A stretch of 64,000 nucleotides of DNA, from NCBI RefSeq assembly GCF_000195085.1, contig NC_015380.1, positions 792,001 to 856,000 on the forward strand, written 5' to 3'. The notes below the pieces were generated by a model. It saw nothing but the letters and a program-made list of their open reading frames with translations, was not told the DNA's origin and searched no databases. Positions 21,740-29,032 of this stretch are shown here, one piece after another. The DNA comes from Candidatus Pelagibacter sp. IMCC9063. Its GTDB lineage: Bacteria; Pseudomonadota; Alphaproteobacteria; Pelagibacterales; Pelagibacteraceae. A program made the translations under genes and the position numbers. Positions within the stretch are counted from its first letter, which is position 1. Each line of letters begins with the position of its first letter.

Positions 21740-22155
21740 ATGAAGTTTTTTATTATAATTATATTTTTTTTATATAGTGTCAGTTCATATTCAGCAGAGA
21801 ATAATTTTTTCACTAAAGGTAAAACTTTATTTGATCAAAAAAAAATTACAGAATCAAAAATAGAGTTTGAAAGAAGTTTAGTTTCTGACCCTAAACACGT
21901 TAATAGTTATATTTTCCTATCTAAAATTTTTTCAGAAACAAAAAAACAAGACGAGGAAAAAAAAATTTAACAACTGCTTTATTACTTGATTCTAAAAATG
22001 AAGAAGCTCTTTACTTGATGTCCTTGCTTAATATTAAAGAGGGGGATTACAAATCCTTAGAAAAAAACTATTCTATTTTAAAGCTTAATTGCTCTAAGTT
22101 TTGTGATCAGCTAGAGGATTTAAACAAATCAATTAAAAAATTTAACAAATCATGA
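21740..22155 (+). pseudogene. Small TPR-like exported protein, frame broken in poly-A
   Basis: The first part (21740-21970) has a signal peptide ending near SYSAENN and the first half of a tetratricopeptide-like helix pair. Translation stops at 21968. One extra A in the A9 run at 21957-21965 restores the frame, which then runs through LLLDSKNEEALYLMSLL (a second TPR-like helix) to a TGA at 22153-22155 overlapping the guaA ATG. The rejoined protein is about 138 residues. Either a homopolymer sequencing error or a real frameshift. Function unknown; the position in guaB-guaA suggests only cotranscription. Confidence 0.6.
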
Positions 22156-23710
22156 GCAAGGCAGTATCTGGCCAAAAAGTCTTGATTGTAGACTTTGGCT
22201 CTCAAGTTACACAACTAATTGCAAGGAGAGTTAGAGAACAATCCGTTTACTGTGAAATCATTAGTTTTGAAAATTTTAATAAACTTAAATCCATTGAAAA
22301 TACCAAGGGCATTATTTTATCAGGTGGCCCATCCTCAACATCTGAAGCGAAATCTCCAAGAATTAAAAACTATGGCTTATTAAAAAACATTCCAATCCTA
22401 GCCATTTGTTATGGCCACCAGCTAATAGCTAAAAAATTTGGAGGTAGGGTTAAATTTACAAATAAAAAAGAATTCGGAAGAGCTGAAATTTATGAAAAAT
22501 CTAATTCATTACTCACTAAGGGTTTCTTTAAGCAAAAAAAAAATACCGTTTGGATGAGTCATTCAGATCAAGTGATTAAAATAGGAGATGGCTTTTCGGT
22601 TGTAGCTGCTACTAAAAATGCAAAGTACGCAATTACCCAAAACATTAAACAAAAAATTTATACCGTTCAGTTTCATCCTGAAGTAGTTCACACCAATCAA
22701 GGAAAGCTTATTTTTAAAAATTTTATTTTTAATATTTGTAAATGTGAAAAAAATTGGACAGATAAATCCAAGCTAGAAAAAATAATTTTTGAAATTAAAA
22801 AAACCGTAGGAAAGAAAAAGGTTTTATGTGCCTTATCAGGAGGTGTGGACAGTAGTGTATTAGCGCACATATTAAAAAAAGCATTAAATAACAGGGTTTA
22901 TTGTGTTTACATAGATACAGGTCTGATGAGAAAAAACGAGAGCAAGGAAATTGTTTCTATCTATAGAAAAAAATTTAAAAAAATTTTATTTATTTAAACG
23001 AAGGACCACTATTTCTAAAAAATTTACACAAAGTGTCTGACCCCGAGAAAAAAAGAAAAATAATAGGAAAAACTTTTATAAAAGTATTTGAAAATTTTTC
23101 CAAACAAAACAAAGGAATTGATTTTTTAGCCCAAGGAACACTTTATCCAGACATAATAGAAAGCCAAAGCTTTTCTGGAAGCCCTAGTTCTAAAATTAAA
23201 TCGCATCATAATGTTGGCGGTCTTCCTAAAAAGATGAATTTTAAATTAATCGAACCATTCCGTGAAATGTTCAAAGATGAAGTTAGAAAGCTTGGAAAAA
23301 AAATGAACATCGAAAGCACTATTCTTGATAGACACCCCTTTCCAGGACCAGGATTGGCTATTCGAATTTTAGGCTCTATTAGCAATAATAAAATTAAAAT
23401 TTTACAAAATGCTGATGATATTTTTATAAGAGAATTGAAAAAAAAGGGTTTATATAAAAATATATGGCAAGCGTTTGCTGCATTGCTTCCAGTAAAATCA
23501 GTTGGTGTGATGGGGGATAGTAGAACGTATGATTTTGTATGTGCCTTAAGAGCGGTCACTTCTACTGATGGCATGACAGCTGATTTTTATAATTTTAATT
23601 ACAAGGATATCTCTGATATTAGTAACAAAATTGTAAATGAGGTTAGCGGTATCAATAGAGTTGTTTATGATATTACCTCTAAGCCACCAGGAACTATAGA
23701 ATGGGAGTAA
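22152..23710 (+). pseudogene. guaA: GMP synthase (glutamine-hydrolysing), frame broken in poly-A
   Basis: GuaA turns XMP into GMP using glutamine and ATP. The first segment (22152-22997) carries the glutaminase domain with the catalytic cysteine in AICYGHQ and the His/Glu pair in VQFHPEV, then the ATP-pyrophosphatase loop ALSGGVDSS. It stops at 22997. The second segment picks up in a +1 frame with [20 protein letters not shown] and includes [12 protein letters not shown] and the C-terminal KPPGTIEWE. One extra A in the A7 run 22977-22983 (or 22967-22973) gives a full 519 residues. As the only route to GMP seen here it is unlikely to be truly dead. Confidence 0.9.
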
Positions 23711-24911: not shown

Positions 24912-25481
24912 ATGTCAAACGAATTAGACAATCAAGTATCAGAAAGTGTCTTTAATGATAAAATATCAAATTTTTATCAAAAGAGAAAATATTATATAAT
25001 AGGATTAGCTATCCTGATTGTTTTAGTGCCTATTAGTTTTCAGATATTTTTAACTCTAGATGAAAAAAATAATTCAAAAGAGTTAGAAAAATACAGTGAG
25101 ATAATTATTGGCAAGGATAAGAAAATACAAGAAGTTGAGCTAGAAAAATTATTACAATCCAACAATGAAAGTGTTTCATTGCTTGTCTTAAACCAATTAC
25201 TTGAAATTAACAAAGATTCAAAAAAAAAATCAATTTCATTTATTGACCAGTTATTAAATGCCAATAAATTTTCTGAGAAAAATATAAAATTTTTAAAAAT
25301 TAAAAAATCTTTATTGGTATTTGATACCGCCACTGAAGTAGAAATGTTAAATTTAATAGACTTAAAGAGCAAGGATTCTGCTTTTAGAAAAATGTCTTTC
25401 GAAATTATGTATGATTTTTATATTAGCAAAAAACAAAATTTAAAAGCCAATGACCTCAAGAGGTTAATTGATGAGAACTAG
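24912..25481 (+). CDS. YfgM-like membrane-anchored periplasmic protein
   Basis: The 189-residue protein has a cytoplasmic N-terminus, one transmembrane helix at about 29-47, and a helical periplasmic part of TPR type. It sits directly before bamB and der, the same order as E. coli yfgM-bamB-der. In E. coli YfgM associates with the Sec translocon and periplasmic chaperones. The sequence similarity is weak, so the assignment rests mainly on topology and position. Confidence 0.6.
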   Translation: MSNELDNQVSESVFNDKISNFYQKRKYYIIGLAILIVLVPISFQIFLTLDEKNNSKELEKYSEIIIGKDKKIQEVELEKLLQSNNESVSLLVLNQLLEINKDSKKKSISFIDQLLNANKFSEKNIKFLKIKKSLLVFDTATEVEMLNLIDLKSKDSAFRKMSFEIMYDFYISKKQNLKANDLKRLIDEN

Positions 25482-26778
25482 TCTCATCCTATTTCTTTCT
25501 TTCCTTTTATTAAATTGTTCTAAAGAAGTTGAGCTAGGAATAGATATAGAGAAGCTTAAAAACGACGGAATAACTGTTTTAAAAAAAATAAATAATTCAG
25601 AAAAATTGAATGAAAAAAAGTCTTTAATATCTAAAATTAATTTAGAAAATCCTGGTAATTTTAAGAATTGGAAACATCCTAATTTTAATTTTCAAAACTT
25701 AGTTCCACATCCAAAATATGAAGGAAATTTTTCTAGCATTAAAAAAACTTATAAATTCAAAAAAACAAAACAAAATACTTACATAAAAAATATTATTAAG
25801 GTTAACAACAAGATTGTTTATGTTGATGATTTTAGTAATTTGCATATTCTAGATGAGAATTTAAATTTGATGAATAAATTTCAAATTTATAAAAAAAAAC
25901 TATTTAAAAAATATTCTTTAAAGTTCTCTATAGCATCGAATGATAATTTTGTTTATGTTGCAGATAATTTAGGAGGAGTGTTAGCATACGATATTGTTAA
26001 TTTTAAATTAGCCTGGAGAATAGAGCTGGGAGTTCCTTTGTTGTCCAACATGGTTCTTTATAAAGAAAATCTTTTTGTTACCAACTCAAATGGAAAAATT
26101 TTCTCTCTAAATTCTATAGATGGAAAAGTTAACTGGAGCTACGAAACAGGCTCCTCTGGAGCAAGCTCTCATAAAGCATACCAATTAGTTGTAGCTAACG
26201 GTAAACTTTTGTTTTCTAACGATTTTGCCAATATTTATTGCATAGATCTTAAAAAACAAAATTTATCCTGGAGAATTACCCTGGAACGTGGAAGTGATTA
26301 TAGTGATGTCTCTTTTTTAAAGCTATCTAATCTGGTTGTAGAAAAAAATAATCTTTTCTTATCATCTAGCTTTGGTTTAGTTCTTAAGATTGATATTGAG
26401 ACAGGAAAAATTATCTGGTCTAACAATAACAACTCTGACATTCGACCATTAATAACAAAAAACCATATTGTATTTGTTAACCACAGAGGTATTTTTAAAA
26501 TTTTCAATAAAGAAAGTGGAAAAATTGTTTTTCAAAAAAATTTATTTGAAATTTTAAAATCTAAAAATATTAAACTAAAAAAAACAAGAGTTAGTAATTT
26601 ATTTTCTGCTTCTAATATCATTTATGTTTCCATAAACAGTAGATTTGTCTTTCAAATTAATAGTCTAAATTTAGAATCGATTGATTATTTAAAAATTTCT
26701 AAAAGTCCTCAGTCTAACCTCGTCTTTTCTGATGGATCTGTTTATTTTATATCCAACAATAAAATTTATAAAATTTAA
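25471..26778 (+). CDS. bamB: BamB-like outer-membrane assembly lipoprotein (beta-propeller)
   Basis: The 435-residue protein starts with a lipoprotein signal whose lipobox LLLNC puts the lipidated cysteine at residue 16. The rest shows PQQ-type beta-propeller repeats, for example GGVLAYDIVNFKLAWRIE, GKIFSLNSIDGKVNWSYE and GLVLKIDIETGKIIWS. BamB supports BamA in inserting outer-membrane proteins. The ATG at 25471 overlaps the end of yfgM, and its stop overlaps the der ATG (TAATG). Slightly longer than E. coli BamB (392). Confidence 0.88.
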   Translation: MRTSLILFLSFLLLNCSKEVELGIDIEKLKNDGITVLKKINNSEKLNEKKSLISKINLENPGNFKNWKHPNFNFQNLVPHPKYEGNFSSIKKTYKFKKTKQNTYIKNIIKVNNKIVYVDDFSNLHILDENLNLMNKFQIYKKKLFKKYSLKFSIASNDNFVYVADNLGGVLAYDIVNFKLAWRIELGVPLLSNMVLYKENLFVTNSNGKIFSLNSIDGKVNWSYETGSSGASSHKAYQLVVANGKLLFSNDFANIYCIDLKKQNLSWRITLERGSDYSDVSFLKLSNLVVEKNNLFLSSSFGLVLKIDIETGKIIWSNNNNSDIRPLITKNHIVFVNHRGIFKIFNKESGKIVFQKNLFEILKSKNIKLKKTRVSNLFSASNIIYVSINSRFVFQINSLNLESIDYLKISKSPQSNLVFSDGSVYFISNNKIYKI

Positions 26779-27581
26779 TGACTATTAATATTTCAATTGT
26801 AGGAAAGCCCAATGTAGGAAAGTCTACTTTTTTTAACAAAATTTTTTCTAAAAATATATCAAAAGTTGCTGATGAGCCTGGAACAACTAAGGATGTGATC
26901 TCCGAGTCTTTTTTGTTTGGTAATGAAGAGTTGGTATTTCACGATACCGGAGGACTTAAAAAAAAAGCCAAGTCTAAAGATGAAAATCAATCCTATATTA
27001 CTAAAGAATGTTTAACTGCCATTAATAACTCTTCCATTGTTATTTTTATGATGGATGCAAATGACAAGTTTACCAAAAACGATAAACAAATTTGCAGAAT
27101 GATTTTAAATAAATTTAAAACATTAATAGTTATTATTAACAAAGCTGATTTAATTAAGGATGAAATCAAAACTAGAACAAAATACTTTAACTATTATTTT
27201 GAAAATTTATTTTCAGATATTTTGATTAAGCCTCATTTCTTCTCTTCTATCATGGAAAAAAGCCCGGATGTTTTTCTTAGAAAAATTTGTAGCTTAGACC
27301 AATCTACTAAAATTATGATTAGTAACAATAAATTAAACACTTTTTTAGAAAAAACGAATAATTCCCATAGAGCTCCACAAAAGGGAAATTTTAGACCAAA
27401 AATTAAATTTTTAAAACAAGTCAACGCTAGACCTATTATTTTAAAAGCTTTTGGAACTAGATTAAAAGGAGTCAATAAAGATTATAAAAATTATTTTTTA
27501 AAACAACTGCTAAGTCATTTTGGCATTTACAATAAAGTAGTAATTATTAAGTTTGTAAATAACGAAAATCCTTTTAGCTAG
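26778..27581 (+). CDS. der: Der/EngA-type GTPase with a single G domain plus KH-like domain
   Basis: The 267-residue protein has P-loop GKPNVGKS (9-16), switch PGTT (35-38), D56-T-G-G and N121-K-A-D, then a C-terminal region (about 176-263) with HRAPQKGNFRPKIKFLKQV, the Der KH-like domain. Normal Der proteins are about 440-500 residues with two tandem G domains. The PGTTKD and DTGGLKKKAKS segments look like the second G domain, so the first is missing. No remnant fits upstream, because bamB abuts with a one-base overlap. Der is a 50S ribosome assembly factor. It is convergent with purF, 2 bp apart. Confidence 0.85.
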   Translation: MTINISIVGKPNVGKSTFFNKIFSKNISKVADEPGTTKDVISESFLFGNEELVFHDTGGLKKKAKSKDENQSYITKECLTAINNSSIVIFMMDANDKFTKNDKQICRMILNKFKTLIVIINKADLIKDEIKTRTKYFNYYFENLFSDILIKPHFFSSIMEKSPDVFLRKICSLDQSTKIMISNNKLNTFLEKTNNSHRAPQKGNFRPKIKFLKQVNARPIILKAFGTRLKGVNKDYKNYFLKQLLSHFGIYNKVVIIKFVNNENPFS

Positions 27582-27583
27582 AG

Positions 27584-29032
27584 TTATCCTGTAAAGTTAC
27601 TGAGCAAAGATAATTGATTGTTTTTTTCAGTTTGGTTCTTAAAATCCTGGGGAATTACTGGATAGTCTCCAGTAAAACAATGATCTGTAAATTGTGGATT
27701 TTTATTATCTCTTTTTTTATGTCCTAGGGCCTTATAAACTCCATCTATACTTAAAAAAGATAATGTCTTAACACCAATAATTTTTCTCATTTCTTCTATG
27801 GTGTTATTCGCAGCTAATAATTCGGACACATTTGGCGTATCAATTCCATAATAATCAGGAAATTTAATTGGAGGACTTGAGATTTTCATATGTACCTCTT
27901 TTGCTCCTACCTCATATAACATCGAGACAATTTTTTTAGAAGTAGTTCCTCTGACAATAGAATCATCAACTAAAATAATTCTTTTATTTTTTATTAATGC
28001 TCTATTTGGATTGTGTTTAAGCTTAACACCTAATTGTCTAATCTGTTGAGTTGGTTCAATAAACGTTCTTCCCACATAATGATTTCTTATTATTCCCATA
28101 TCAAATTGTATTTTTGACTCTTCGGAATATCCAATGGCTGCAGGATTACCAGAGTCTGGAACTGCAGATACTAAGTCAGCTTCTGTAGAAAATTCTTTAG
28201 CTAGTTGTTTGCCCAGATCTTTTCTATATTCATAAACACCTTTACCTCCCACAATGCTGTCTGGTCTTGAAAAATAAATATATTCAAAAATACATGGTCT
28301 GGAATTTTGTTTAGGAAATGGCTTGATACTTTCAATACCGTTTTTGTTAATAATTACTATTTCACCATTCTCAACTTCTCTTATAAATTCTGCCCCAATT
28401 ATATCTAAGGCACAAGTTTCAGACGCAAAAATATAAGAATCTCCAAGTTTACCTAATACCAAAGGTCTGATTCCGAAAGGATCTCTAATACCAACAAGCT
28501 TTTTATTAGTTAGCATGACCATTGCGTAGCCACCCTGAATTTGAAAAATAGAATCGATGATTTTATCGATAATTTTAGTCCTTCTTGATTTTGCTATTAG
28601 CTGAACAACTGTTTCAGTATCAGATGTTGTTTGAAATATTGCTCCTTCTTTGACCATTTTCTCTCTAATGTGAATGGCATTGGTAAGGTTTCCATTATGC
28701 GCAATGCTAATACCACCCAAATATAAATCAGCAAAGAAAGGCTGAATGTTTCTAACAATAGGAAGTCCACTCGTTGAATAGCGATTATGTCCAATAGCTG
28801 TATTTCCAGGTAGTTGATCGATTATTTTTTTACTTGTAAAGTTGTCACCTACAAGACCTCTTCTTTTAACCGAATGAAAGTTCTTACCATCAAATGTATT
28901 GATACCACACGCCTCTTGCCCCCTGTGTTGTAGTGCATGCAAACCTAACGCCGTAAGAGATGCTGCATCCTTATGGTTGTAAACACCAAAGACACCACAC
29001 TCTTCTCTTAATCTATCGTCTAGCACAGGCAA
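27584..29032 (-). CDS. purF: Amidophosphoribosyltransferase
   Basis: The 482-residue enzyme commits PRPP to purine synthesis. The N-terminal nucleophile is C12 after an 11-residue propeptide (MPVLDDRLREEC). The glutaminase motifs HNRYSTSG and HNGNL follow. The C-terminal phosphoribosyltransferase motif is ILVDDSIVRGTTS. Conserved cysteines near GCFTGDYP-like positions (HCFTGDYP) are present, so an Fe-S or metal site is possible. It follows cvpA, as in E. coli. Confidence 0.97.
   Translation of the reverse strand: MPVLDDRLREECGVFGVYNHKDAASLTALGLHALQHRGQEACGINTFDGKNFHSVKRRGLVGDNFTSKKIIDQLPGNTAIGHNRYSTSGLPIVRNIQPFFADLYLGGISIAHNGNLTNAIHIREKMVKEGAIFQTTSDTETVVQLIAKSRRTKIIDKIIDSIFQIQGGYAMVMLTNKKLVGIRDPFGIRPLVLGKLGDSYIFASETCALDIIGAEFIREVENGEIVIINKNGIESIKPFPKQNSRPCIFEYIYFSRPDSIVGGKGVYEYRKDLGKQLAKEFSTEADLVSAVPDSGNPAAIGYSEESKIQFDMGIIRNHYVGRTFIEPTQQIRQLGVKLKHNPNRALIKNKRIILVDDSIVRGTTSKKIVSMLYEVGAKEVHMKISSPPIKFPDYYGIDTPNVSELLAANNTIEEMRKIIGVKTLSFLSIDGVYKALGHKKRDNKNPQFTDHCFTGDYPVIPQDFKNQTEKNNQLSLLSNFTG

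Follow-up and report, generated by a model that had tools for sequence, protein, structure and literature searches.

In the window (31.05% GC), a 64,000-nucleotide stretch of the Candidatus Pelagibacter sp. IMCC9063 genome, we identified a short der gene between bamB and a convergent purF (Table 1). The strain is described as a member of SAR11 subclade IIIa with a genome of 1284 kb and 31.7% GC (PMC3815206). The last base of bamB is the A of the der ATG, in agreement with the one-base overlap read by the initial annotation, and purF served as the marker of the empty der site in relatives without the gene.

Table 1. Features of the der locus, in positions of the window.
Feature	Position	Strand	Remarks
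bamB (PF13360), upstream neighbour of der	25468..26778	+	One-base overlap with der
One-domain der (GD2-KH), 267 aa	26778..27581	+	ATG start; TIGR03594 and Pfam matches
Single G domain, PF01926, residues 5–122	26790..27143	+	82.6 bits; G2-like by HMM
P-loop (G1) GKPNVGKST	26802–26828	+	Motif intact
G3 DTGG	26943–26954	+	Motif intact
G4 NKAD	27138–27149	+	Motif intact
KH-like C-terminal domain of Der, PF14714, residues 181–258	27318..27551	+	48.0 bits, cut-off 27.3
purF (amidophosphoribosyltransferase), convergent to der	27584..29032	-	Named from sequence, without family search

The encoded protein shares with Der/EngA (TIGR03594; E. coli 3j8g, B. subtilis YphC 9bsl) the order and arrangement of its G and KH-like domains and the bamB–der gene order, and Der/EngA is its best match in both sequence and structure. 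However, Der/EngA has two tandem G domains, and the SAR11 protein lacks the first (GD1). Its match to TIGR03594 (NCBIfam) spans profile positions 176–431 of 432 only and scores 187.3 bits, under the curated cut-off of 306.7. The KH-like domain scores above its own cut-off, and the GTPase motifs are intact, including the P-loop Asn, which confirms the one complete G domain plus KH-like domain of the initial annotation. Residues 9–12, 14–17, D56, G59, N121, K122 and D124 are invariant in all 21 one-domain Ders compared, as is a C-terminal NP. Conserved Asn residues have been implicated in the K+ activation of EngA (PMC3466195).

The initial annotation had called for a search for a full-length der elsewhere and for a look at the closest relatives. 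No second Der, full-length der or free-standing first G domain was found in this genome (G000; a single 1,284,727-base contig with an estimated completeness of 100%); by size, its other G-domain matches correspond to Era, MnmE, Obg, YchF and translation factors. One-domain Ders are also encoded by the closest relatives in which the gene is intact (G001, G003 and G005).

Elsewhere in the window, a run of A divides guaA (22152–23710) into two frames; the related locus L034 has a single open frame of 521 aa, and the break is either a sequencing error or a true one. Indels in this assembly are thus possible, as would be needed if a frameshift or deletion in assembly or annotation had taken GD1 from a normal der. 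However, HMMs of the first and second G domains matched only the der ORF in the six frames of the whole window (next best match E = 0.091), no GD1 sequence occurred in any frame of six loci of family f2, bamB directly adjoins the one-domain frame, and further genomes in two families have the same architecture. An assembly artefact is refuted by relatives that share the junction, and we consider its probability negligible.

Identity of the retained G domain and predicted fold

To assign the single G domain, we used separate HMMs for first and second G domains, each built from 30 domains of alphaproteobacterial Ders that have both, leaving out seven long-branch loci (L083, L085, L090–L092, L098 and L099). 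The 267-residue protein scored 105.2 bits with the G2 HMM and 85.5 bits with the G1 HMM, bearing out the initial proposal that its G domain is most like the second. The G2 HMM led in 20 of 20 one-domain proteins (17 from SAR11 and three from family f25), with margins of 6.2–61.5 bits. Across the order, the one-domain matches formed one continuous stretch over TIGR03594 positions ~173–431, and alignments with PDB structures needed a gap after G3 against G1 and none against G2. In a first G-domain tree the SAR11 domains formed a branch of their own (support 86). In a second tree, from which the same seven loci, Era and MnmE had been dropped, the one-domain rows were placed along the branch that joins the G1 clade (100) to the G2 clade (96.8). 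These trees are ambiguous, and G3 reads DTGG like the first domains compared, as might be expected if the domain were G1, or a G1/G2 hybrid, joined to KH. Such an origin is nevertheless highly improbable given the consistent lead of the G2 HMM, the single continuous profile match and the position of the alignment gaps. KH continuity and the gap-free alignment favour a G2 identity of the retained domain, as far as sequence comparison can assign it.

The AlphaFold2 model of the protein (pLDDT 87.4, pTM 0.86) was most similar to ribosome-bound B. subtilis Der (9bsl_W and 9bs0_W; TM 0.87 and 0.86, rmsd 2.3). Crystal forms of Der agreed with the model less well (rmsd 3.3–6.2), and the E. coli Der-50S structure 3j8g (TM 0.72, rmsd 5.9) was no better than these. 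The fold as modelled fits Der.

Distribution of one-domain Der

SAR11 (Pelagibacterales) are free-living Pseudomonadota. We searched a sample of 397 genomes of this order and 385 genomes of the class, with the TIGR03594 cut-off as the threshold for a two-domain Der. This cut-off was passed in none of the 397 genomes of the order versus 350 of the 385 in the class. An intact one-domain match (E <= 2.4e-51) was present, among the matches listed, in 53 SAR11 genomes. They belong to two families, f1 with 13 (genera g1, g6, g8 and g10) and f2 with 40 of its 52 listed genomes (g15–g18). One-domain frames in these relatives measured 269–287 aa, with the exception of G081 (printed as 397, fetched frame 289 aa). 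Partial or broken matches were seen in the f2 genomes G045, G047 and G112 and in G002 of g1; in G045 (L224) and G112 (L225), both fragmented assemblies, the one-domain der is interrupted by frame breaks. Der was not found in nine of the 52 listed f2 genomes, eight of them at 55–88% completeness and the ninth being G044 (91%), nor in the f1 genomes G004 (g1, 79% complete), G025 (g8, 79%) and G033 (g8, 68%). In a sample of the whole phylum, the Der KH domain was present in 154 of 155 genomes; all 150 matches listed lay in frames of 380–723 aa, with five more, including that of G000, outside the list.

In the class, 26 low-scoring or missing cases of our choosing were re-examined together with the control G477. 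Three genomes of family f25, which belongs to another order and has genomes of 0.8–1.1 Mb, encode a one-domain Der adjoining bamB and purF (loci L094–L096 in G432, G563 and G738). The one-domain Ders of SAR11 and f25 may share an origin or have arisen separately; a test of the shared one did not reject it (p-AU 0.23). Of the 20 class genomes without a match, eight were among those re-examined and again showed nothing Der-like, several of them at 95–100% completeness, and Der absence in single assemblies is therefore not confined to SAR11; these cases are either gaps or real losses. They include G587 (f144, 100% complete) and G596 (f70, 99%), and G477, a genus mate of G596, has a two-domain Der. 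Family f32 has a short (417–425 aa) and very divergent two-domain Der (L098–L100 in G666, G439 and G743), whose first P-loop is unusual in L098 and L099 (GKVNEGKS). In G775 (L093/L110), Der occurs in two frames on one contig with the first and second G domains apart; its family mate G606 scores as a two-domain Der (E 4.1e-119).

Adjacency of bamB and der is kept in both SAR11 families and in f25. With orthology of der judged from synteny, the first G domain would have been lost in the common ancestor of SAR11.

Absence of Der and Era in sister genera

In the genera g2, g3, g4, g5 and g7, the order search returned only weaker matches among those listed (best 3.7e-30), in frames of MnmE length where these were given. 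Seven genomes of the order search, not named, had no match. A profile of the 21 one-domain Ders gave no Der-like match in any of the 31 genomes of g2–g5, g7, g9 and g11–g14, of which 18 are at least 90% complete. The best score in the 31 was 63 bits, in an MnmE-length frame, versus 334–365 bits for intact Ders. We read 30 purF loci. The order bamB–der–purF–cvpA was present at eight SAR11 and two f25 loci, whereas bamB and purF abut at the old der site at 11 loci of g2, g3, g5, g9 and g11. At three of these the stop codons of the two genes overlap, and at the other eight they are separated by 0–9 nt, leaving no der remnant. Different genes flank purF at five loci of g4 and one of g7, and at three further loci (one each in g8, g12 and f2) the contig ends there. 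In a tree of purF and its RND neighbour, the 18 Der-less rows grouped in a single clade (89/100) that also took in a stray f32 row, which makes a single loss of Der the simplest reading. The purF of L098 (G666) groups with Pelagibacter-like purF, although the adjoining der is of the f32 type; either gene transfer or a mixed bin would account for this. We infer that the Der-less genera represent the Pelagibacter-like clade.

Era scored over the TIGR00436 cut-off in all 26 tested genomes of Der-bearing genera, including G025 and G044, and in none of the 27 tested genomes of Der-less genera. G439, the one f32 genome tested, likewise gave no Era above the cut-off. The Der-less genera are a single clade, and the co-absence of Der and Era therefore counts as one coincidence on the tree rather than many independent ones. 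So ordered, Der would have shrunk to GD2-KH, and Der and Era would then have disappeared. EngB is about 200 aa in size. A PF01926 census of 22 genomes (19 from SAR11), judged by frame size, found no EngB-sized frame in SAR11, and EngB may be missing from the order.

The lack of a detectable Der in sister genera, together with the broken frames in G045 and G112, would also be expected if the one-domain gene were a decaying, functionless remnant on its way to absence. We consider this very unlikely. The dN/dS ratio was 0.012–0.133 in nine of nine pairs, with dS > 1 in five pairs and the same five lacking a YN00 value; the G1, G3 and G4 residues and the terminal NP do not vary, the gene is kept across two families, and both broken copies come from fragmented assemblies. 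Judged by these ratios, the one-domain der is under purifying selection. The reduction to GD2-KH read by the initial annotation stands, with the qualification that the one-domain form belongs to the order and not to this genome alone. Since it is order-wide and no Der was found in sister genera, the 267-residue protein may be a step on the way to losing Der altogether, and not an irreducible core or, as the initial annotation suggested, the minimal Der for 50S assembly.

The Candidate Phyla Radiation resembles SAR11 in that its reduced genomes are described as having lost der and era; there, der, uL1 and helix H78 are said to co-evolve, with losses of uL1 or H78 (PMC12641178). Unlike that group, SAR11 kept uL1 in 27 of 27 genomes. 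A 23S rRNA was found in 12 of 26 genomes (that of G000 was missed), and in the ten with a full-length match the length of the H76–H78 region is unchanged relative to E. coli. Der was thus reduced and lost without loss of uL1 or H78. The uL1 model (TIGR01169) scored 224–255 bits in ten Der-less genomes versus 284–296 in nine of Der-bearing genera. The ratios of distances to alphaproteobacterial outgroups were 1.16 for uL1, 1.13 for uL10, 1.13 for NusG, 0.96 for uL11 and 1.01 for bL12. As uL10 and NusG distances rise about as much, we rejected a uL1-specific change in the Der-less genera. Of 31 positions in 23S rRNA that were specific to the Der-less clade, two fall in the L1 stalk. The stalk changes G2112U and C2145U occur in all four Der-less genomes (L176, L179, L180 and L181), which form one clade, and in none of seven other sequences. 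With no length change, one clade and few sites, this is not evidence for a stalk change tied to Der loss.

Proposed role of the one-domain protein

In ribosome-bound Der, GD2 occupies the P site, GD1 sits close to the L1 stalk and KH points towards the peptidyl transferase centre (PMC13278734). M. smegmatis EngA with GD1 deleted is reported to bind 50S with no need for GTP, and of the two G4 motifs that of GD2 is required and that of GD1 is not (PMC3323550); with a GTP analogue, GD2-KH prefers 50S (cited in PMC3466195). Both G domains of E. coli Der are reported to be needed in vivo, binding to the ribosome in vitro is likewise reported to depend on both (cited in PMC3466195), and B. subtilis GD2-KH alone hydrolyses GTP 150-fold more slowly than GD1 (PMC3466195). 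Given these requirements elsewhere, the SAR11 protein must be adapted or act as a slow switch. The engineered EngA proteins without GD1 (M. smegmatis C-Ter EngA and B. subtilis GD2-KH; PMC3323550, PMC3466195) have the same domain content, but they are laboratory-made, whereas the SAR11 form is a natural, conserved gene.

Based on these comparisons, we propose that loss of the first G domain of der in the SAR11 ancestor would have left a single-switch GTPase with one G domain, a K+-linked P-loop Asn and a fused Der KH domain. It most likely still binds 50S precursors, its G domain occupying the P-site space and its KH domain facing the peptidyl transferase centre, and GTP hydrolysis would release it. 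What GD1 provides elsewhere, a contact close to the L1 stalk and a GTP gate, would be absent, so that the action of GD2-KH on the 50S subunit would be ungated, with constitutive binding, and GD1 would have become dispensable. The Pelagibacter-like clade, whose genera also lack Era, would then have lost der altogether. We are fairly confident of the outline, namely a der orthologue that lost GD1 in the SAR11 ancestor, acts as a single-switch 50S GTPase and was later removed in the Pelagibacter-like clade.

We give even chances to a broader reading, in which SAR11 offers a natural series from two-domain Der through GD2-KH to no Der at all, GD2-KH suffices for 50S assembly as an ungated GTPase, GD1 serves as a regulatory gate with which a streamlined cell can dispense, and Der and Era are dispensable in the Pelagibacter-like clade. 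If the last point is true, ribosome assembly in some of the most abundant free-living bacteria proceeds without two "essential" GTPases. We found no literature report of a natural one-domain Der or of Der or Era loss in SAR11, judged by titles and abstracts, and neither "Pelagibacter" nor "SAR11" occurs in the main text of a 2025 survey (PMC12641178). A one-domain or absent Der in very abundant ocean bacteria questions how much of an "essential" factor a bacterium needs, and a conserved natural GD2-KH form makes the reason for Der's two GTP switches testable by complementation: if this form works, GD1 would be regulatory, not mechanical. SAR11 also offers a free-living group for studying ribosome assembly with few GTPases.

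Era (TIGR00436) likewise has one G and one KH domain, the isolated Der KH domain is able to bind 30S (cited in PMC3466195), and the presence of Der and that of Era coincide across the genera. These points would suit a protein that kept the G2-KH core and gained another task, such as an Era-like 30S or RNA-quality role, which we regard as unlikely. A separate era gene persists in this genome and, as described above, in the other tested genomes of Der-bearing genera; the 267-residue protein scores 72.5 bits with the Era model, under the cut-off of 116.25; and the structural ranking places Der on 50S precursors ahead of Era.
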